DNA from: Picocystis sp. L7
Taxonomy: Eukaryota; Chlorophyta; Picocystophyceae; Picocystales; Picocystaceae
Length of the DNA stretch: 64,000 nt
Direction of reading: 5' to 3'
Assembly (NCBI GenBank): GCA_020975725.1
Contig: QXJR01000018.1
Span: forward strand, 372,001 to 436,000
Shown here: piece by piece, positions 3,176 through 38,958 of the stretch
Layout: each line of letters starts with the position of its first letter
How positions within the stretch are numbered: position 1 is the stretch's first letter
Translations under genes and position numbers: made by a program
The notes under the pieces: generated by a model
What the model was told of the DNA's origin: nothing
Seen by the model: the letters and a program-made list of their open reading frames with translations, nothing else
Databases searched by the model: none

Positions 3176-4240
3176 TCAATACTTGGTGAAGCCACCACGG
3201 TTAAGGATGACCTCTTCAAGCCTCTTGGGCATGGTTTTGAGGAGCTTGGAACCTAGCCCCTCTTTGGAGAGCTCCTTCCATGCACGAAAGGTGCAGGTTT
3301 TGAGCTCTTCCAATGTGGTGGGTCTCATGGCTTCCACCCTCCTGTCCAAGCAAGACCACACGTTTTCAATGGGACTGAGATCAGGGCTGAGAGAGGGCCA
3401 ATCCAACATGAGATCCACGTGAGCTTGAGTGGAGAGCTCCACCAACTTGAGAATGGTGGCCTTCGATCGATGGGCCCCATCCCCATCCTGTTGAAAGGTC
3501 CAGGGGGCCTTCTTGTACAACCTGGTGCCCTCCTTCATCAGCCAAGGGAGGACTTTTTCTGCGTACTCCTGCTGTCCTACACCCTTGGACACCTTCCCTT
3601 GTCCATCCTTGAAGTCACAAGGCTGCCCTGTGGTCCCCGTGACTGTCATCAGGCCTGTGAGTCCACGAGCACACACCCCACCATACACTTTGATTCGTGG
3701 GGGGGCCTTGTTGTACTCCACGAGGGGTGTGGTACCAGGAGGGACTAGGGTTCGTTTGGAGCCTTTGTGCTTGGTGGTTCCCAGGTAAATTTGGTGGGCA
3801 TCCGTGAAAAGAACCCGCTCAAAATCATCCCCCAAGTGCCGTTCCGCAAACTTCACTCTATTGGCCTTGTGTGAGGCCTGCAACTTCATCACCTTTTTTT
3901 GGACCTTGGTCTTCACCCCCAAATCCTTCAACAGCCGTTGCAAGGTCCTCAACGGTACTCTCCGTCCGTACCGTGCTTCCCACTCGTTCATGACGTCCCT
4001 TGTCCCCATGGCCTGGCCTTCAAGTGCACGAGACTTGAGCAAGTTGCACAGCCACTTGTCATGACCACGGGCATAAGAGAGGGAACGGCGTTTCGAAGAG
4101 GGGGAAGCTTTGGGCTTACGATCCTTCACCCAATACTTCACTGTCACCCAACTCCGCTTCATAACCTTGGACGTGGCGGAGAGATTCCCACTCAGCACCT
4201 TGTACGCCGCTTTGGTGGCCTGGATGGCCGCTTCCTCCAT
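3176..4240 (-). CDS. Tc1/mariner-superfamily DDE transposase
   Basis: The single frame encodes 354 residues with an ATG start and no visible break, so the protein looks intact. A helix-turn-helix-like N-terminus (about residues 9-40, with SATSKVMKRSWVTVKYW) and a second basic region are followed by the DDE catalytic core. The core residues are D147 (VLFTDAHQIYL), D252 (FQQDGDGAH) and E292 (SLSPDLSPIENVW). The last motif is the usual Tc1/mariner signature. By my count 39 residues separate the second D from the E, compared with 34 in classical Tc1 and mariner proteins. The protein would cut and rejoin element ends, normally at TA targets. The gene sits centrally between the two 787-bp repeats, and whether their ends are its substrate is not known. 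Confidence 0.9.
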   Translation of the reverse strand: MEEAAIQATKAAYKVLSGNLSATSKVMKRSWVTVKYWVKDRKPKASPSSKRRSLSYARGHDKWLCNLLKSRALEGQAMGTRDVMNEWEARYGRRVPLRTLQRLLKDLGVKTKVQKKVMKLQASHKANRVKFAERHLGDDFERVLFTDAHQIYLGTTKHKGSKRTLVPPGTTPLVEYNKAPPRIKVYGGVCARGLTGLMTVTGTTGQPCDFKDGQGKVSKGVGQQEYAEKVLPWLMKEGTRLYKKAPWTFQQDGDGAHRSKATILKLVELSTQAHVDLMLDWPSLSPDLSPIENVWSCLDRRVEAMRPTTLEELKTCTFRAWKELSKEGLGSKLLKTMPKRLEEVILNRGGFTKY

Positions 4241-4600: not shown

Positions 4601-5387
4601 CACCCCACCGCCACTTTGGGGAAGCGTGAGTCCTCGGGCTTTTTCTTCACATCAGGCCTGTTCCCCGTTCTTTTTTGTGGTGTTTCCAGGTGATTCGACG
4701 AGCAGAATCCGAATCTGAGCTTGGATCGTCCTGGATCGTTTGTTTTCTGGGTGAACTCGGTGCGGCTGGCTCGGGGAGTTCTCCAAATTCACCCTTTTTT
4801 GGGCGTTTTGGTCAGGCGGTTGCCCATGCGCTTCATGGCACCAGGAGCATCGACTCTCGATGTGTTTTTTCTCATGAAGGTGTCCTATCTTTCTGTCTTT
4901 CCCTTCCCCGGGTTTGGCGGTCCGGTTCTTTGTGGATGCCTGGCTGCCGTTGGGAAGGTGCGCAGCAGCGGTGCCGTTTGGGGTCCCCACCACCTGGTGG
5001 TGGTTTTTCGACTCTAGAACTCGCGCCAGGCAGAATTTGGCCATTTTGAGAGCACCGTTCGAAAGAACGCGCCGAGACCTATCCAACGAGCTATCGTTCG
5101 CTCGATTTGAACCCATATTCGAAGAGATACGCGCGTCGAAAGGAAGGAGCACCCGCCAGGGGAAACGAGGCAGGATCCAGCCCCGAAAGACCCTGGGACG
5201 TGCACGGGCCTCCCTGCTCTTGCACGGGCCGAACCAGGCCGGGGTCCATCGATCCAAACCCCTCAAAACGGAGTGCTCTACAACTTCGATTGGAAGAGCA
5301 ACGACTGGAGAGGTCCTCCGGAGGCTCCACGGATCCCACAGCGACAGCCCCTCTCTCCCTATGAAGAAAAAGTGGCGGTGGGGTGGG
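4601..5387. repeat. 787-bp repeat, copy 2, with 17-bp inverted ends
   Basis: This copy is identical to 1781-2567 over its full length, at an offset of 2,820 bp. Its right end (AGTGGCGGTGGGGTGGG) runs into G-rich sequence that forms the 5' flank of the listerin gene. An ATG at 5361, inside this copy, is in frame with listerin with no stop between them, so the repeat may contribute an alternative start or part of the 5' untranslated region. Confidence 0.8.
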
Positions 5388-14206: not shown

Positions 14207-15889
14207 TCACACATCATCCCCCGATTGTTTCTGGACCTTGGCCATGTTGATCAACAGCTTGGATTTCCTGTTTTTCAAGATGTTGGAGAGCATCGTGACG
14301 TCCGTCATGTCGTCCGTGAAAATGTTGACCCATTCGTCCATCGTGACCCTACGGGCTTCGAGGCTGGTATCCTTCACATCGTCATCCAAATCAGCGGCCC
14401 CATGAGACACTTTGTCGCTCTCCTTCAACAAGAACTCGGCCAAAACGGCTAGCTTGTCGTCAGACAAGGTGGCGGAACGTTTTCCTGATGCACCAAAGAC
14501 GTATTTGAGCTGCTTGAAGATCTCTGCTTTATCAAGGTAACCCGTTCCACCTTCGTCAATGCTCGCAAAGACGGAAGCTGCCACCAGGGCCTGGGCAGTA
14601 AATCTTGCGTATTCCCTGCGGAAGTTCACATCGGTCCGCATGTTGCTCCTGTACAGCTGTGATCTCGTGCCAAGCATGTACTGGGCAATCAAACTCGTGA
14701 TGGTGCCAGCCACACCAATCAACACCAAACCTTGTACCAATGCATTGATAAATGCGTTGTAGTCGAAGGATCCCATGGTTCCACCAAAGACAAATTGAAA
14801 CTGGATTCCATACCTGTACCGGTCGTAGGTGTAGATCTCATTTTGAATCGTGATGTTCTCTCTCAAAAGAATTTGCGGGTCTACAGGAGTGTTCAACATC
14901 AACGAGACATCGTCGCCCAAGCTGGTCCATGTGAGCTGCGGGTCGATCTCGACCACGCTTACAATCTCAGAGCTGGTTGTACCTACACCGCCTGATCCTG
15001 GCTGCAAGTTGTAGTTGTAAAATGAAGTCAACAGCACGATTTTCAATCCAGTCACCCTGACGTAGGGGAACTGGCCAGCGCTATCACCTACTCCTTGGAA
15101 ATTGGGGTCGTCCACATTGTTTGCTGAGACTGGCTGATCATTGAACTGTTTGTCCAGGTCGATGCCGGCCCAATCAAGCCAATCCTGGACCGAAGCCTCA
15201 ATATCTGACCCGGGTGCAAACTCCGCAAGATTTTCATTGCTGCCTTTGCGCCGCAAAAAGGTCCTTGGGGCTGCTCCGTTCCTTCCAATGAGGGGTGATG
15301 TATCGTACGAACTTAAGAACGTGAAACGCATCTTCGTTGATGCCGGCACGAGATAGTCTTCTTGTTGTCTGTATGCACAAGTGCCTGGCAGCGTCAAGTT
15401 GGCATCGCGAAGGTCGTAGTTGTCGCCCAATCCAGCGTCTTCAGGATTCGGGCACTCTTCTCCTTCCTTGGGTCTCGTGACGCTACGAATGTCGGTAAAG
15501 TGGGTCACGAAGAAAACGTTACCTTGCATGTCCTTCACAGTGTACTGCTCTGGTGAGATAAAGGCACATGTAAAGTTGTCGTAGACAAATTCTTTGCTGT
15601 AGGTGAAATCGTAGATAGAGGGATTCGCACAAGGTACGGCATCTAGTTCCTCGAACTGCACTCGGTTTTCCTCGTACACTTCATCTACGATGGTCGAAAA
15701 TGCCGCAACAGTACCTTGCGGCGTCTCTGTGTACAGGTAGCTTTGATTGCTGATGATGTTGAAGAGCACGTACGCAATAATGACACAAATCAGGACCTTG
15801 TGAGGAATGCCCACGCGCATATCCTGTATCACCACAAAGCGGGGCGCCGTGTAGGCGCCCAGCATGGGCCTGATGACGCTCCTCCACAT
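14207..15889 (-). CDS. P2X-receptor-like ligand-gated channel with EF-hand-like C-terminus
   Basis: P2X receptors are trimeric cation channels opened by ATP. This 560-residue protein has the P2X plan: a short cytosolic N-terminus, first membrane helix at about 30-52 (KVLICVIIAYVLFNIISNQSY), a large external domain, and a second helix at about 385-408 after YRYGIQFQFVFGGTMGSFDYN, which resembles the P2X pre-helix segment and its glycine-rich helix. The external domain has only four obvious cysteines, against ten in animal receptors. The two lysines that bind ATP phosphates after helix 1 in animals are not seen; the stretch reads AAFSTIVDEVYEE. After helix 2 comes about 150 cytosolic residues with an EF-hand-like loop at about 445-456 (DEGGTGYLDKAE). 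P2X-like genes occur in some green algae and protists, and their location there can be internal membranes. It is a single exon. Confidence 0.7.
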   Translation of the reverse strand: MWRSVIRPMLGAYTAPRFVVIQDMRVGIPHKVLICVIIAYVLFNIISNQSYLYTETPQGTVAAFSTIVDEVYEENRVQFEELDAVPCANPSIYDFTYSKEFVYDNFTCAFISPEQYTVKDMQGNVFFVTHFTDIRSVTRPKEGEECPNPEDAGLGDNYDLRDANLTLPGTCAYRQQEDYLVPASTKMRFTFLSSYDTSPLIGRNGAAPRTFLRRKGSNENLAEFAPGSDIEASVQDWLDWAGIDLDKQFNDQPVSANNVDDPNFQGVGDSAGQFPYVRVTGLKIVLLTSFYNYNLQPGSGGVGTTSSEIVSVVEIDPQLTWTSLGDDVSLMLNTPVDPQILLRENITIQNEIYTYDRYRYGIQFQFVFGGTMGSFDYNAFINALVQGLVLIGVAGTITSLIAQYMLGTRSQLYRSNMRTDVNFRREYARFTAQALVAASVFASIDEGGTGYLDKAEIFKQLKYVFGASGKRSATLSDDKLAVLAEFLLKESDKVSHGAADLDDDVKDTSLEARRVTMDEWVNIFTDDMTDVTMLSNILKNRKSKLLINMAKVQKQSGDDV

Positions 15890-25263: not shown

Positions 25264-26760
25264 TTAGACATTGATGGCAGCTCTCCTAGGATATTTGGAT
25301 GCAGGAAAGTCCAGCATCTCCTCTGGCTCCCAGGTGTTCCAGTTGTCATCATAATCTTGCCATTTAATCAGATAGTACTTCTTGTTTTCGTGAATTCTCT
25401 CATCAAGGATACACTCCACAAAGTATTCTTCTCCATCAGCATCTTCTGTATCTGTGGTCTGGTCGGGCGAACGTGCAGGTCTTTTGTTTTGCTCATTCAT
25501 GTTTTTGCCCTTTGCTAGCTTTCCATTCACATTAGTCTTCTTCTGTGCGAAGGTGTTGGCGATAGATCTTTGACGGAGAACCCTCTTTCTGGGTACGCAT
25601 TCTTCAGGCTGGTTGTCCACAGTAGTGTCACTTGCATCCAAACTATCAGAGTCCTTTTTCAATACATAGAACCTTCTTGGTTTGAAAGGTTCCACTCCTG
25701 TTTCACCCTCCAGTACACCACCTAACACTGCTTCCCCTGTGTATCCTCCGTATGGTGATGCCCTGTGTATAGTTACAATCAGGCGGTGTCCAGGTGCCTT
25801 CTCGAAAACAACTGCATCCCCAACGCACAGGCCTTGGTCTATGGCAAATCCTCTCCAGCCTCCGCTGAGACCCCCACTGTTGTGCCCGCGCACAAGATAC
25901 ACATTTTCCCATTCCTCCCCTTCACAGTCCAGAATGAATCGGCAGGAACTTGTGGGCATGTGCCTGGTCAGGTCACATGGAAGTTGCAACCAGAAGCCAC
26001 CAGACACATGGGACGGAAGCATCAGTTTCAGGAACGCGGGCCCTTCACTTGCAGAGATTGTTTCTTCTGCCCGCGCAATCACCTTGTTTACCATTTCTTG
26101 GCTGGGCCAGAGGACCGCATTGGGATGGGCCCCGCGCAGGGATGCCAATCCATCCCTGCGAGCCACCCTCGTCCTCTTCCTGCCCCTCTGCTCGTCTGGA
26201 AAGTCCATTTGCAATGCGGCTTGATAATTCGGTGCTGGCAAGGACTTCACCCTGAGCGACTTGCGAGATGCTTCGAGTGGTGCGCGGCTAGATCTCGCCT
26301 GCAGCTGACGGATCGGTTGTCTCAAGTCCGTGGAGACTTCTTGTACTGCTTTTGCGGCTTGCAGCACACCCAGCTGCATCATTTGCATTTTGTTCTGCTT
26401 TCATGCAAGTCGATATCGAAGAAGTTGGTGGAACGCACGATTGCATTCGTTCGGACGACGTTCGTGGGCCAACAAGGGCTCGTCAGCTTGGGTTTTCGTC
26501 CGTTTATTCCGCTTCGTCCGTTTTTCCATCGACCCGTCGCGACGAGTGAGCCACCACCGCGGGCAGTTTCGTGCAAGCGTGCACGATCCTGGTCGCGTTC
26601 CACCTTCCGCTCGGCCGTCTATTCCATCGCTTGCGCCACGGTCCATCTCCTTGAGGTTCGCGGGAGGCGACTTCGCCGTCGTATTTCTTCGCACCTGTTG
26701 GATCCTTTTGAGCCGTTCCTTCTCGTAGAGGTTCAGCTCGGCCTCGATGGCCTTGCTCAT
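25264..26760 (-). CDS. B3 DNA-binding domain plus chromodomain protein, two exons
   Basis: Exon 1 is 26695-26760 (22 codons) and exon 2 is 25264-26394; the 300-bp intron has GTGCGA...CAG ends. The joined protein has 398 residues. The splice joins YEKERLKRIQQ to NKMQMMQLGVLQ, the charged N-terminal helix typical of plant B3 proteins of the At5g42700/At3g19184 type, which supports the intron. A B3 domain follows at about 140-235 (FLKLMLPSHVSGGFWLQLP, then GGWRGFAIDQGLCVGDAVVF); it normally binds DNA in the nucleus. A basic linker (PRKRVLRQR; GKNMNEQNKRPARS) leads to a chromodomain at about 343-384 (YFVECILDERIHENKKYYL then IKWQDYDDNWNTWEP) with the aromatic positions that cage methyl-lysine. 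A protein joining sequence-specific DNA binding to histone-mark reading is implied; I do not know this combination from plants. Confidence 0.85.
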
Positions 26761-33653: not shown

Positions 33654-36600
33654 CTAAGATTTGTCTGTGGATGCTACAGAATCAGAAACGAAACTGTTGC
33701 CCCTTTCAAAAGCAGCATCCTGTGTGGATCCTTCGAGGCTGTGCTGCCGTTTGAATTCCTTCCCAGAGGTTTTCCTGTGCCGGCCTGTGCCAGTGCTGTT
33801 GTTGGATGAACTCCGCCTTAGATAACTTCCACTTTTAAGGAAAGAAAGACCAGATGGCCACAGCGTTTTGAATGTTCCAGTTTTCACAATCCCATCGTTA
33901 AAATCATCTTCTCCGTGGCTGTCGAAGAACTCCAGTCTCTGTGCTAACACACGAACGTGATCTACTGTGCTTCGTAGGCTCTCCGCCTTTGCTGGAGGGG
34001 GCGCAATGCCTCGTGCCTTTGTGGGCCTTTGTGGGCGCTCCTCAAGGGGTCTGACGATCATCTGCAGAACAGGCAAGCTCTCCCTTAGTCCCTTAAGAGC
34101 AAAGATTCCCATGTGCTTGAACTTACACAGAGTGGCCAAGGCTTTGGCGGGTTCAGTTTCTTTTTCAATGTCCATGCCAAGCAAACATGAGCCCGTAAGC
34201 AGAACTTGTCCACCCCCTGCCATTTGCAACACACGGGCTGCACGATTCATCACTGGTCCAGTGTACAAAGCACGACCAGTGGTAGAGTGTGGTTGGCAGT
34301 CGTTTGGTCTGCCTTCACATGCACCAACTGATACTTGCAACCCCCTATACACAAGCCTTTCATTGCCCTTTGAGTCATAAATGTACATTTCTCCAGCCTC
34401 CTCTGTATCCAACAGATCTGGATCCCAGTCAAGTTCCATTGCCTGCACATGCACCGTGGCTGCAAAAAGCAATGCCTGTGTAGGTGACTTGAAGGCGTAG
34501 ACGAACTTTCCATGCAATGCTTCACACTCGTACCCATCAAAATGTTGAGAAAGCGGGCGTATGCAATGGACCTGCAGTTGGTCAAGTGCTGCCTCTGCCT
34601 TCTCCTTGTTCCACAATTCAATGTTGGCTAGACGGTGCACCTCCATGAATACTATGGTGACGGATTCTTTGGAGCTTAGAGGAAGTGCACACGGTGCCTC
34701 AAAGAAGCTTGGCGACATAGTCTTGGCAGTGCGCAGCTTTGGGAACAAAAGTTCCCGCTCTTTCAATTCATTCGGTGTAAGCATGTAGAGATTGAGAGAT
34801 TTAAAGCCATCCGAAAGCTCATGCTCTCCCATGTGCACGATTCTAGCATTGGGTGTTGACAGATCAATATCTTCCTTGAGGACACTTTCCCCCATGATGA
34901 TCTGTCCTCCGGCTGGGGCATTGGCAATCAACTTTACCGTCTCCAATACGCTCCCTTCATAAACATATCGTCCGTTGGATTCACTCTTGTACCTAGAAAG
35001 TGGTAGTCCAGTGTTCAAGGCAATGCGAACGCGAAGCCCCCTGAACAAGATATGCCCGCTTTTGTTGGTTACCAAGCCAGGAACAACAGATTGATCTACA
35101 ATCTCAGGTGCCCATGCTGCATCCAGCAACTCACGCTGCACATCTAAAGACCAGTTGATGGCATCTTGGGCTGTATGAAAAACACAAGTGAAGCTGTCCC
35201 CTTCGGTGTAGCTCTCGTATCCATAGTGCCTGTACATCAAACTCCTCAAAAGGCGATCGTGCAGTGCAAGGGCTACGCCCATTGCTTCTGGAAAAGATTC
35301 CCACAAAACGGTACTACCCTGTACATCTGTAACAGCAATGGTAACCTCTTCATCTTCACGTGGGGGTAGCCTCTTCACAAAACCAGTACGGTTTATCAGC
35401 GCACGATGGATGAAATAGATGACAGCAATCAGCAGGAGCATACCCACCCCCCCAAAGACGGCGGCGAGGACGATGCCGGTTGTAGAAATACCGCCATTTC
35501 CTCCATCATCTGGAGTAATACATTCTGCTGAGGAAGCATCAGTTAGCACGCGGATCAAGTCATTCCCCGTGTCTGCAGCAAATACAAAGGTTTCTTGTCC
35601 ATTCTCATAGACATCCAAAAAAAGGGGTGAGTCAAACCTGGACGTCATGGTGGGATTGCAAGGGTCGTTATCCCTGAATCCCCCACTCCCAAAAAGTTCT
35701 CCGCCTAACGTTGTCACACTTGCAGTTGCTAAGACAATTTTCCGAATGGAGTGAGCTCCTGCATCTGCAACAAACAGATGTGACCCATCTTTACTTATGG
35801 CAATACCAGTTGGATTCAGAAAACCTGCAGCAGGACCGACACCGTCCACTGCCGAGGTGATTGTATCACTACCAGCAAGAGAAGCTGTTGCCCCATCGGT
35901 GGTAGAGACCCTTCGTATGCGGAAGTTAGAGCTATCGGCAACATAAACGTACTGGCCATCTGGAGATGCTGCAACGCCGTTTGGGAAAGCAAATTTCACA
36001 GAAGCACCAATTGGTCCATCCTCAAAACCGAACAGACCTCCTGCCAGAGTAGAGACATTCCAAGAATTCATGTCAACAGTCCTTATCCGGTTGTTGTCCT
36101 TGTCTGCAACATAAAGAGTCATGCCATCAAGAGAAAGAGCAACATCCTCTGGGGCTTGAAATTTTGCCTCAAATCTGGACCCATCTGCAAACCCATAAGT
36201 GCCATCCCCTACTAGGGTCGCCACACTGCCTGAAATGGTATCAACTTTGTAGATCCTGTTGTTCCATCGGTCTGCAACATAGAGCAAACCCCGCGGTTCA
36301 TCCAATGCCATCCCTATGGGAGCATTAAGGGTGTTTTGTGAGTCCTCGAGGGGGTTTCTATCTTGGCTGCCCTGCACACTTGCTACAAGTAAGGAAACAC
36401 GACCTGACACTTGTGGGCTCCGTATATCGGACAATTCCAGTTTGTAAATGCCTCCGATGCCACGGTCTCCTGCAGAGACATACAAAGTTCTTCCGTCGCT
36501 GGAAATCGCCATACCCAGCGGACTGACACCAGTTGCTCCCCCGTCCATGTCTGTGTGGACAAAGGGAGGTAATCCAGGTTGGGCGCTGACAAACGCCATG

Positions 36601-37535
36601 GAGGAAGAGAAATAGGCTGTACCATTGTCCCTAGATTCTGAGAAACTTGTGGGAGCATCTAGCGGTGACCAAAGAGGTACGCGGTTGCCACGCACGAGAT
36701 CTGTGCCATACAAAGGAATGTTGGTGTTTTCTTCCCTGCCTTGAAACAACAGAACATTGATGTCTTTGCCAATGAACCTGCAGTCGTTCTTGTTTTCCGT
36801 TTGGTCTAACAGGCTTATGAAGTCTGTCGAGCCATCATAGTATGCAACCAACGAATCAGGGTATGGTCGATTCAGAGGTACCGCATCTGCTCTGATTTCA
36901 TCTACGTTCCTCGCAACATTCCATATCTTCACTTCATCTACCATGGCATTGAGGTATGCACCATCATAGAATGCTTCTCTGCCAATGTACAGTTTGCCAA
37001 CATCAGCAATCCTTCCTGGATTGGAAACGGAAGCATCCAGCACTCCATTCACGTAGTACCTCAACATTTCCCCATCAAACGTCCAAGCTAAGAAGTACCA
37101 TTGTTTTTCCTGCAGCGTGGTTGCCCCTTGTAAAAACTCGAAGGCTCCATCGATTTTAAACCTCGAATACATCCTCCTCTCGAAGATGGCGCACTCGTAG
37201 GCGTCTCCTTCATCACCTGCTTCATCATTTTCCACGAGGAAATCTCCTCCTTTGGAGACCAGATGTTGGTACGGCGAAACGTCCGTGAAGTACGCCCACA
37301 ACTCCACCGTGAGTGCATCTCTCAGCCTCACGGAATCTGCGTTTCCGCACGTAGCATAGTCGCGGTTGCGTCCCAAGAACTCCACGCTTCCTCCCGACAC
37401 AGGTTCTACGGTTTCCACGAAGGCATCCAGGCACGTGGCGTTTTCTCCCGCGTCCTGCGCGCGCACGTGCGTTCCAGAACCGTTCAGCAGGACCAGGAGG
37501 CACGTCAGTGCCGTCACCAGGCCCAGGAAGCGCAT
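33654..37535 (-). CDS. Receptor-like tandem class III nucleotide cyclase with lectin-like and NHL ectodomain
   Basis: From the ATG at 37535 the protein has 1,293 residues: a signal peptide (MRFLGLVTALTCLLVLLNG), a laminin-G/concanavalin-like domain (about 30-235; LTVELWAYFTD, WYFLAWTFDGEMLRYYVNG, MVDEVKIWNVARN), an NHL beta-propeller (about 330-640, repeated LYVADRWNNRIYKVD-like units), one membrane helix (about 688-712) and two cyclase homology domains (about 728-885 and 958-1,125). Domain 1 keeps both metal-binding aspartates (AVTDVQGST; TEGDSF) but lacks the transition-state Asn/Arg. Domain 2 lacks the aspartates (FMEVHRL; LHGKF) but has N-x3-R (MNRAAR). The pair would form one active site, as in animal membrane adenylyl cyclases. 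Product (cAMP or cGMP) and ligand are unknown. An upstream ATG at 37637 would add 34 residues before the signal peptide. One exon; Ser-rich tail. Confidence 0.85.
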   Translation of the reverse strand: MRFLGLVTALTCLLVLLNGSGTHVRAQDAGENATCLDAFVETVEPVSGGSVEFLGRNRDYATCGNADSVRLRDALTVELWAYFTDVSPYQHLVSKGGDFLVENDEAGDEGDAYECAIFERRMYSRFKIDGAFEFLQGATTLQEKQWYFLAWTFDGEMLRYYVNGVLDASVSNPGRIADVGKLYIGREAFYDGAYLNAMVDEVKIWNVARNVDEIRADAVPLNRPYPDSLVAYYDGSTDFISLLDQTENKNDCRFIGKDINVLLFQGREENTNIPLYGTDLVRGNRVPLWSPLDAPTSFSESRDNGTAYFSSSMAFVSAQPGLPPFVHTDMDGGATGVSPLGMAISSDGRTLYVSAGDRGIGGIYKLELSDIRSPQVSGRVSLLVASVQGSQDRNPLEDSQNTLNAPIGMALDEPRGLLYVADRWNNRIYKVDTISGSVATLVGDGTYGFADGSRFEAKFQAPEDVALSLDGMTLYVADKDNNRIRTVDMNSWNVSTLAGGLFGFEDGPIGASVKFAFPNGVAASPDGQYVYVADSSNFRIRRVSTTDGATASLAGSDTITSAVDGVGPAAGFLNPTGIAISKDGSHLFVADAGAHSIRKIVLATASVTTLGGELFGSGGFRDNDPCNPTMTSRFDSPLFLDVYENGQETFVFAADTGNDLIRVLTDASSAECITPDDGGNGGISTTGIVLAAVFGGVGMLLLIAVIYFIHRALINRTGFVKRLPPREDEEVTIAVTDVQGSTVLWESFPEAMGVALALHDRLLRSLMYRHYGYESYTEGDSFTCVFHTAQDAINWSLDVQRELLDAAWAPEIVDQSVVPGLVTNKSGHILFRGLRVRIALNTGLPLSRYKSESNGRYVYEGSVLETVKLIANAPAGGQIIMGESVLKEDIDLSTPNARIVHMGEHELSDGFKSLNLYMLTPNELKERELLFPKLRTAKTMSPSFFEAPCALPLSSKESVTIVFMEVHRLANIELWNKEKAEAALDQLQVHCIRPLSQHFDGYECEALHGKFVYAFKSPTQALLFAATVHVQAMELDWDPDLLDTEEAGEMYIYDSKGNERLVYRGLQVSVGACEGRPNDCQPHSTTGRALYTGPVMNRAARVLQMAGGGQVLLTGSCLLGMDIEKETEPAKALATLCKFKHMGIFALKGLRESLPVLQMIVRPLEERPQRPTKARGIAPPPAKAESLRSTVDHVRVLAQRLEFFDSHGEDDFNDGIVKTGTFKTLWPSGLSFLKSGSYLRRSSSNNSTGTGRHRKTSGKEFKRQHSLEGSTQDAAFERGNSFVSDSVASTDKS

Positions 37536-38958
37536 GGCGATGGCGCGAGACGCGCGCACTTGGTGCCTTGCGAAGCGCCTTGGTTTCGGATGTGCTGGCA
37601 GATCTCTTCGGTTAAGCCACGAAATAACCCATTCCATCCGATGACCCTATGGATGGGGTATTATTTAGTATCCGGGGAAGGGGGGGGAGGGGGGGTCCCG
37701 GGAGCACCGAGGAGGGGTCGGGCGGCGGAGGAAGGGGAGCAGTCCTCTGCGGGACTCGGCGCGAAACGGGGGCTTCATCGGGACATCTATCGACGGAGGG
37801 GCGGAGGAACGATCTACGCGCAGAGGAACGGTTCCCTGGCCTCGTACCTCGAACAGGGGGGTGCTACAGCCGCTGACGAATCCAGGATCGATGTGTTCGT
37901 CCCTCCCTCCCCACCACACGATCGAGGAGGTTAACCCCGGGATTAACCTTCGGGAATGGCGAGGGAGCCCAAGCACGTGATCCAAGGACCGAAACTTTCC
38001 GACACGAAGAACCAAGTCGCGACGAGCAAAAGGGAAGTGAGACGTGCGCTTCGGATCGACCACACGTCGTGAAGGGTGCATGGTGGTGGCCTCCTATGGG
38101 CGGACATCGAGAAACACCTACGAAAGCATCCGTCGACGTTGTTTGCAAGTCGCCTCGTGAGAAGCATGGCATTCCAGCCCTCCACCGGGCGATTCATCCG
38201 CCTCAATCGTACCTGAGCGACCCACGACCCTTCCCTAAGCATAACCGAATGCCCAGCTGGAAATGCCAATCGAGAAACGGCGAAGTTGCAGTCCTCAGAC
38301 AGGCATCCTTTGAGTTGCAAAGATGTATGGTCCCCTGTAGAGGTCAACGTGCCCCGCAATCCTAAAATGCCTACTCCTGCAGCTGGCCATGAATGGTGCT
38401 CAAGCATTGGTTCGTGGACCACGTAGGAATCATCCGAGCAATCTTGTATGTTACATTGGAGGGATATCAACCCACACAATAGACCCGCAATTCAAATGGT
38501 AGTTCTCAACAATCGCATGCGAAAGATTGTGGCTTGTCTACACGAGCCGCTCGCACACACACACAAGCACAATTGGGGCCGTTGTCCTTTAGCAATTTAA
38601 GACACAAGGATTCACTACGAGTGGACAAAAGATGTCCAGGAGAAAGACCATGTCTAATCCGAAAACTCTTTCCTACATCCTCTTTCGACGAGTCTGTATT
38701 GTCAAGGGTACGCAAAGTCAAGTAACCTTGGCTGGAAGCGCCGGCCAGATGAACAAAGCGAACATGTATGGCTTCGATGGGCACTGCGACCTCAAGGGTG
38801 AAAATAAAGTGCTAACAAACCAGTTATTTATTTCGACCAAGAATGAACATCCTACCTCATCGGGGCAAGCATTCTAGTCTTGCATGCGCTTACCCTGAAG
38901 TCTCTTTCATGTGTACGAGAATCTCTGCATGTGCTGATCGCCATTGATTCGGACGCAA
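37536..38958. other. Intergenic: cyclase promoter region and FAD-enzyme 5'-distal flank
   Basis: About 1.4 kb without a supportable gene. G-runs occur at 37,680-37,700. GGTTAACC (37929) and ATTAACC (37942) lie about 400 bp upstream of the cyclase start. The rest (38,050-38,950) is of mixed composition and includes the 3' flank of the next minus-strand gene. Confidence 0.4.

Follow-up and report, generated by a model that had tools for sequence, protein, structure and literature searches.

A candidate single-pass receptor-type nucleotidyl cyclase in Picocystis sp. L7, with a laminin-G and NHL ectodomain and a complementary tandem of trypanosome-type cyclase domains

The stretch of DNA analyzed here (the window) comprises 64,000 nucleotides of contig QXJR01000018.1 from the green alga Picocystis sp. 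L7, and all coordinates below are positions within it. Its minus strand carries a gene with an uninterrupted open reading frame (ORF) of 1,327 codons (33654-37637), whose product combines an ectodomain, one membrane helix and two cyclase domains, C1 and C2. An earlier note on this DNA had placed the gene at 33654-37535 and left the strand unstated; the gene was confirmed and its end at 37535 coincides with Met35, while the strand is minus, and the first plus-strand frame of 33654-37535 contains stops throughout. Met35 is the more probable start, because a signal-peptide-like stretch begins there. The GC content at third codon positions is 0.49 in the gene, near the 0.52-0.55 of four neighboring genes. 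An ORF arising by chance was considered and dropped, as the E-values of the Pfam domains stand against it. The parts of the protein, with positions in amino acids (aa), are as follows:

33654..37637, minus strand: whole ORF of 1327 aa, with the probable start Met35 at 37535 (ORF translation; signal-peptide-like stretch)
37458..37535, minus strand: putative signal peptide, aa 35-60 (MRFLGL...THVRA), found by hydropathy and by eye
36894..37364, minus strand: Laminin_G_3 / concanavalin-A-like domain (LamG), aa 92-248 (Pfam PF13385, E 2.1e-21)
35523..36560, minus strand: NHL beta-propeller region, about aa 360-705 with bounds set by eye, strongest matches at aa 437-652 (Pfam PF01436, four stretches, E 7.2e-22)
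35403..35480, minus strand: single transmembrane helix, aa 720-745 (Kyte-Doolittle peak 2.86)
34740..35372, minus strand: cyclase domain C1, the metal-binding half, aa 756-966 (Pfam PF00211; GRESAG4.3, E 2.3e-16)
34023..34700, minus strand: cyclase domain C2, the Asn/Arg/Lys half, aa 980-1205 (GRESAG4.3, E 2.2e-8; shuffle control; AF2 model; fold match to 1fx4)
33657..34022, minus strand: Ser/Thr-rich C-terminal tail without a known domain (no Pfam match at a limit of E 10)

In phmmer searches, the nearest PDB chains of the propeller were SOQ1 (best E 2.3e-32) and a teneurin-like protein (E 7.5e-29). Besides the N-terminus, one strong hydrophobic helix was detected, and the only other 19-residue window above 1.2 outside the N-terminus starts at aa 1136 and reaches 1.22. 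The single pass proposed in the earlier note was thus borne out, and so was its order of signal peptide, LamG, NHL, one helix and two cyclase domains, the signal peptide being judged by hydropathy and eye.

C1 was recognized by Pfam as Guanylate_cyc (aa 761-953, E 1.9e-13), and its best match among PDB chains was GRESAG4.3, with the bacterial Ma1120 next. The search with hidden Markov models that the earlier note had suggested for the ectodomain and both cyclase domains succeeded in part, as LamG, NHL and C1 were found by Pfam but C2 was not, giving no match at a limit of E 10, where the filters remove most matches above about 0.1. A phmmer search with C2 against all PDB chains (E up to 10) returned two trypanosome cyclases and nothing else (GRESAG4.3, 1fx4, at 2.2e-8 and the other at 2.6e-7). 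For controls, bacterial genomes yielded 270 matching stretches, 205 of which encode a relative of C1, and 80 of these 205 loci (none longer than about 10.5 kb) were kept as controls and not as whole-protein relatives. A bacterial-only cyclase profile, for which 17 of these 80 domains but not C1 were used, scored C1 at 95.1 bits and C2 at 31.9 bits; among 1000 shuffled C2 sequences, 531 obtained a score against this profile, the highest being 4.2 bits. BLASTP aligned C1 and C2 end-to-end over 219 columns with 25% identity (E 4e-15), and the alignment includes the alpha3-beta4 interval, which holds an insertion in the receptor cyclases of trypanosomes (PMC6027212, in excerpt).

When C2 was modeled alone with AlphaFold2 (AF2), the predicted local distance difference test (pLDDT) score was 87.2 and the predicted template modeling (pTM) score 0.85, and the best fold matches of the model were 1fx4 (E 1.9e-15) and 1fx2. 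By sequence match, profile score and predicted fold, C2 is a class III cyclase domain; both halves belong to this class by homology or fold, C2 without a Pfam match. The traits of the trypanosome type, a domain nearest to GRESAG4 (among PDB chains) with the alpha3-beta4 insertion, were also found. The possibility that C2 is not a cyclase was dropped, the GRESAG4.3 match, the shuffle control and the model with a pLDDT of 87 all standing against it.

The residues expected at one catalytic site are distributed over the two domains at the following positions:

35325..35327, minus strand: D771, first metal aspartate of C1 (AVTDVQ; alignments)
35196..35198, minus strand: D814, second metal aspartate of C1 (TEGDSF; alignments)
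34929..34943, minus strand: E899-L903 of C1, where the catalytic Asn and Arg positions are lost (alignments)
34641..34643, minus strand: E999 of C2, where the first metal-Asp position is lost (MAFFT, hmmsearch and BLASTP alignments)
34509..34511, minus strand: G1043 of C2, where the second metal-Asp position is lost (MAFFT, hmmsearch and BLASTP alignments)
34233..34247, minus strand: N1131-x3-R1135 of C2, ribose-orienting Asn and transition-state Arg (alignments including the profile alignment)
34092..34094, minus strand: K1182 of C2, triphosphate-binding Lys of the beta7-beta8 loop, Ser942 in C1 (MAFFT columns, BLASTP)
34521..34523, minus strand: E1039 of C2 at the base-specifying Lys position, guanylyl-cyclase-like (MAFFT and other alignments; unaligned in the profile alignment)

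The complementary split of the active site that the earlier note had described was recovered, with D771 and D814 kept in C1 and N1131 and R1135 in C2, while C1 has E899 at the Asn position, L903 at the Arg position and S942 at that of the phosphate Lys. The split extends one residue further than had been noted, to the Lys of the beta7-beta8 loop (K1182 in C2, Ser in C1), whose role is in triphosphate binding (PMC2576301, in excerpt). The pair as a whole therefore holds five of the six roles of a single site (D771, D814, N1131, R1135 and K1182), the metal site lying on C1 and Asn/Arg/Lys on C2, as in the animal type. A comparable division is described for CYG12, in which Asp, Asp and Arg belong to A and Asn, Arg and Lys to B, the positions resembling those in the site of adenylate cyclase (PMC2576301, in excerpt). 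All 80 bacterial single-domain relatives have the two Asp and the Arg together, a count that is biased for the first Asp, which belonged to the search pattern; at the phosphate position, 78 of the 80 carry Lys or Arg, one has Ala and one a gap. These 80 relatives are mostly mycobacterial and not independent.

A model of both domains together (AF2, aa 745-1210), as the earlier note had suggested, reached a pLDDT of 68.2 and a pTM of 0.54; most of C1 was predicted well, C2 less so. Among the 50 fold matches listed for this model, the best were 1fx4 and 1fx2 over about 214 columns. In the trial alignment for this model, the homologous rows all lay on C1 except for a few stray letters of the tail, and in trial alignments of 14 rows the C-terminal halves were also aligned to C1; because the homologue rows fell on C1, C2 was modeled apart. 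As C2 had no aligned homologues in the trial alignment, the two-domain model is weak evidence in either direction. The predicted fold is supported for C2 and, to a lesser degree, for C1.

At the position of the adenine-selecting Lys, C2 has Glu (E1039) and C1 has Tyr, while 76 of the 80 bacterial relatives have Lys, three Asp and one His. The Lys for adenine recognition, a trait of the trypanosome type, is therefore absent, and the Glu of the receptor guanylyl cyclases is present; Glu at this position is described as the main determinant of specificity for GTP, with less conservation at the second position (PMC7384201, in excerpt). Because Glu replaces Lys in C2, cyclic GMP (cGMP) would be a likelier product than cyclic AMP (cAMP), and in our judgement the odds of GTP over ATP as the substrate are roughly two to one. 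A pair making cAMP would be a variant of the enzyme proposed below and not exclusive of it, and we consider it unlikely, though not negligible: the two nearest relatives with solved structures (GRESAG4.1 and 4.3) are adenylate cyclases, but the adenine Lys that nearly all bacterial relatives retain is replaced in both domains, and its partner Asp is seen in neither.

The anatomy is firm, comprising the uninterrupted frame, the domain content, the relationship of C1 and C2 to known cyclases and the pattern of residues; from it we infer a duplication history, a pairing, an activity, a substrate, a topology and a signal. We propose, with a probability of roughly 0.6, a single-pass receptor-type nucleotidyl cyclase with a LamG and NHL ectodomain and a complementary tandem of trypanosome-type C1 and C2 domains, with cGMP as the favored product. 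The LamG and NHL ectodomain would lie on the secreted side, followed by one helix, a linker of about 10-20 aa and the C1-C2 tandem. The simplest history would be a tandem duplication of a trypanosome-type domain, from which C1 and C2 arose and then decayed in complementary ways. C1 and C2 would pair head to tail, within one chain or between two, and form one working site in which D771 and D814 of C1 hold the metals and N1131, R1135 and K1182 of C2 complete it; the mirror site, where all these residues are lost, would be regulatory at most. Binding of an outside ligand, which the earlier note took to be a glycan or a protein, or association of receptors, might shift the alignment of C1 and C2 and so set the rate, and E1039 in the base pocket would favor the conversion of GTP to cGMP over that of ATP to cAMP. 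The division of residues given in the earlier note holds, but the split looks parallel to that of the animal adenylyl cyclases and not inherited from it, because both domains are nearest, among solved structures, to the trypanosome receptor-type cyclases by sequence, and C2 by modeled fold too.

Several observations weigh against this proposal. Foldseek aligned the two-domain model with the pairs of soluble adenylyl cyclase (sAC) and AC9 over 443-479 columns with TM scores of 0.26-0.33 and root-mean-square deviations of 20-22 A (among the best 50 matches), so that in this weak model (pLDDT 68) the domains are packed unlike the known sAC and AC9 pairs. The sixth role, that of the beta4 triphosphate Arg, found no confident placement in the alignments. 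The Asp, Glu and Lys positions of C2 come from MAFFT, BLASTP and hmmsearch, while the profile alignment omits most of C2, leaving its first half and the Lys region unaligned, and bears on N1131 and R1135 only. The Asn is a weak marker, because it occurs in just four of the 80 bacterial relatives (Ala in 73, His in three). At the second base-specifying position, where adenylyl cyclases have Asp and guanylyl cyclases Cys or Ser, C2 has a hydrophobic residue, and a one-residue indel makes the exact column unsure. Lastly, among the bacterial and viral sequences searched, no orthologues were found that might support selection on the split pattern.

How the two domains meet leaves room for other arrangements. 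In one of these, which is not exclusive of the proposed receptor cyclase, the site would form in trans: C1 of one chain would join C2 of the other in a receptor dimer with two sites, switched by dimerization of the ectodomain in the manner of trypanosome and animal receptor cyclases. We regard this as a minority possibility. It fits the trypanosome receptor cyclases, which are single-pass homodimers (PMC6027212, in excerpt), and a two-domain model that is not packed like a known cis pair; yet by our estimate the C1-C2 linker of about 30-35 aa should suffice for pairing in cis, and the model is too weak to argue against that. Rather improbable is a receptor pseudo-enzyme, in which C2 has decayed, catalysis is absent and both cyclase domains act instead as a scaffold or a nucleotide-binding switch. 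Such a protein could account for a C2 too diverged for Pfam, for its unusual base pocket and for the failure of the two-domain model to reproduce the pair arrangement, but the residues for one site, K1182 included, are kept on the right domains, and random decay would be unlikely to spare both NRAAR in C2 and EGDS in C1. That C1 partners another cyclase protein of the cell instead of C2 is very improbable, since heteromeric cyclases such as mammalian soluble guanylyl cyclase exist (PMC2576301, in excerpt) but the needed complement lies in the same chain, about 30-35 aa away.

Of the known cyclases compared with the proposed single-pass receptor cyclase, the trypanosome receptor-type adenylate cyclases (GRESAG4/ESAG4) provided the best sequence match of C1 and C2 and the best fold match of C2 among PDB chains. 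These enzymes share with the proposed receptor a large ectodomain, one helix and a cytosolic class III domain, along with the alpha3-beta4 insertion and some 110 residues of tail at the C-terminus, but they have one catalytic domain, work as homodimers and mostly carry a Venus-flytrap ectodomain (PMC6027212, in excerpt). The Picocystis protein has instead two incomplete, complementary domains and a LamG and NHL ectodomain, with neither a Venus-flytrap domain nor one complete catalytic domain. The animal transmembrane adenylyl cyclases resemble it in domain order, in the metal Asp on C1 and Asn/Arg/Lys on C2, and in having one live and one dead site. They differ in their hexahelical membrane domains, in place of which one hydrophobic helix was found here besides the N-terminus; in the Picocystis protein, moreover, both cyclase domains lie in one cytosolic tail, the sequence is nearer to the trypanosome enzymes and Glu stands at the position of base choice. 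Soluble adenylyl cyclase (ADCY10) likewise has a C1-C2 tandem in one chain without membrane domains between, and Foldseek aligned the weak two-domain model to this enzyme across about 460-480 columns (among the 50 matches listed), but it has no receptor part and is packed differently from the model (TM 0.26-0.30). The animal receptor guanylyl cyclases share the single pass and the Glu at the base-selecting position, which here is in C2. They also have a kinase-homology domain, whereas the Pfam scan of the Picocystis protein revealed none and only about 10-20 aa separate membrane and cyclase; two cyclase domains and another ectodomain further distinguish the algal protein.

The eukaryotic membrane cyclases are described as having arisen by duplication and fusion, a fused dimeric class III cyclase being unknown in bacteria (Schultz, PMC9552081, in excerpt). 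Proteins with two cyclase domains in Physarum have the twelve-helix arrangement, and the main text of that paper mentions neither NHL nor laminin (PMC4758236, in excerpt). In a family from stramenopiles and alveolates, a voltage-sensor-like part is joined to one cyclase domain (PMC12223298, in excerpt).

The search for relatives covered viral contigs, bacterial genomes and the literature. A pattern search of the viral contigs with the whole protein was negative; a DNA motif matched 28 loci, from which tblastn recovered no more than two short matches to C1 (E 0.29 and 0.36), and a C1/GRESAG alignment gave 17 stretches, of which none was confirmed. Within the 80 bacterial loci, neither NHL nor LamG was found at E 1e-3, no frame held two cyclase matches, and a short match to C2 (E 0.001) came from a single locus. 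No cyclase receptor carrying LamG or NHL was recognized in the full-text literature, judged by titles and the beginnings of abstracts among the matches listed, and to that extent the earlier note's statement that it knew of no described protein with this domain order is uncontradicted. Set beside PDB chains and bacterial and viral sequences, the combination of LamG, NHL, one helix and a tandem complementary C1-C2 appears to be a variant of the single-pass receptor cyclase. Predicted chlorophyte cyclases include, as an unconfirmed lead, trypanosome-like and tandem domains; if so, the catalytic tandem would be less new than the whole architecture.

Another tandem was observed in a Thermoleophilia metagenome-assembled genome (G002:C172, L138:512-4756, minus strand), where a frame of 1414 aa contains two tandem class III cyclase matches followed by an AAA and TPR region, a domain order that resembles soluble adenylyl cyclase. 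Pfam passes its second cyclase match only. By eye, GGDA lies in the first domain and DAINTAAR in the second, which places the second Asp and the Asn/Arg on different domains; the frame is from a metagenome assembly, with contamination possible.

Around the cyclase gene, no other frame of the 64,000-nucleotide window gave a cyclase-profile match. The neighboring genes identified by Pfam encode a B3 and chromodomain protein, an XS/zf-XS/XH protein, a phytochelatin synthase and a YGGT protein, together with a Clp chaperone that has a UVR motif and an N-terminal extension, nicastrin, NAT10 and a GH77 glucanotransferase. This set points to a photosynthetic eukaryote from the green lineage, B3 and XS/XH domains being markers of green plants. 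A B3 DNA-binding domain and a chromodomain are combined in a single protein at 25264-26388 (minus strand). At 14207-15889 (minus strand) lies a 560-aa P2X-receptor-like protein (Pfam P2X, aa 13-62, E 6e-9), whose aa 359-414 weakly match residues 314-368 of P2X4 (E 2e-4) and are followed by an EF-hand-like stretch (by eye); from these matches it is a candidate ATP-gated channel of a probable green alga. Two identical 300-base copies, 2820 apart (1781-2080 and 4601-4900), flank a Tc1/Tc3-like transposase (3176-4240, minus strand); the true repeat may be longer, and the copies and the transposase are possibly a mobile element or its long repeats.

Fused C1-C2 cyclases are best known from animals, whose enzyme has twelve membrane helices. 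If a trypanosome-type tandem indeed sits in a single-pass receptor, this division of labor would have been reached by a second route, and the compact C1-C2 tail would allow one-site catalysis and its receptor control to be studied without twelve helices. The finding bears on how green algae respond through cyclic nucleotides to outside signals, a field in which the receptors are little known. More tentatively, and with the odds somewhat against it, the protein may be a plant-lineage single-pass receptor cyclase that makes cGMP under the control of LamG and NHL and in which the division between C1 and C2 was reached independently, through duplication of a trypanosome-type domain within one cytosolic tail; if that were true, it would represent a receptor class between the single-pass homodimeric cyclases and the twelve-helix enzymes of animals.

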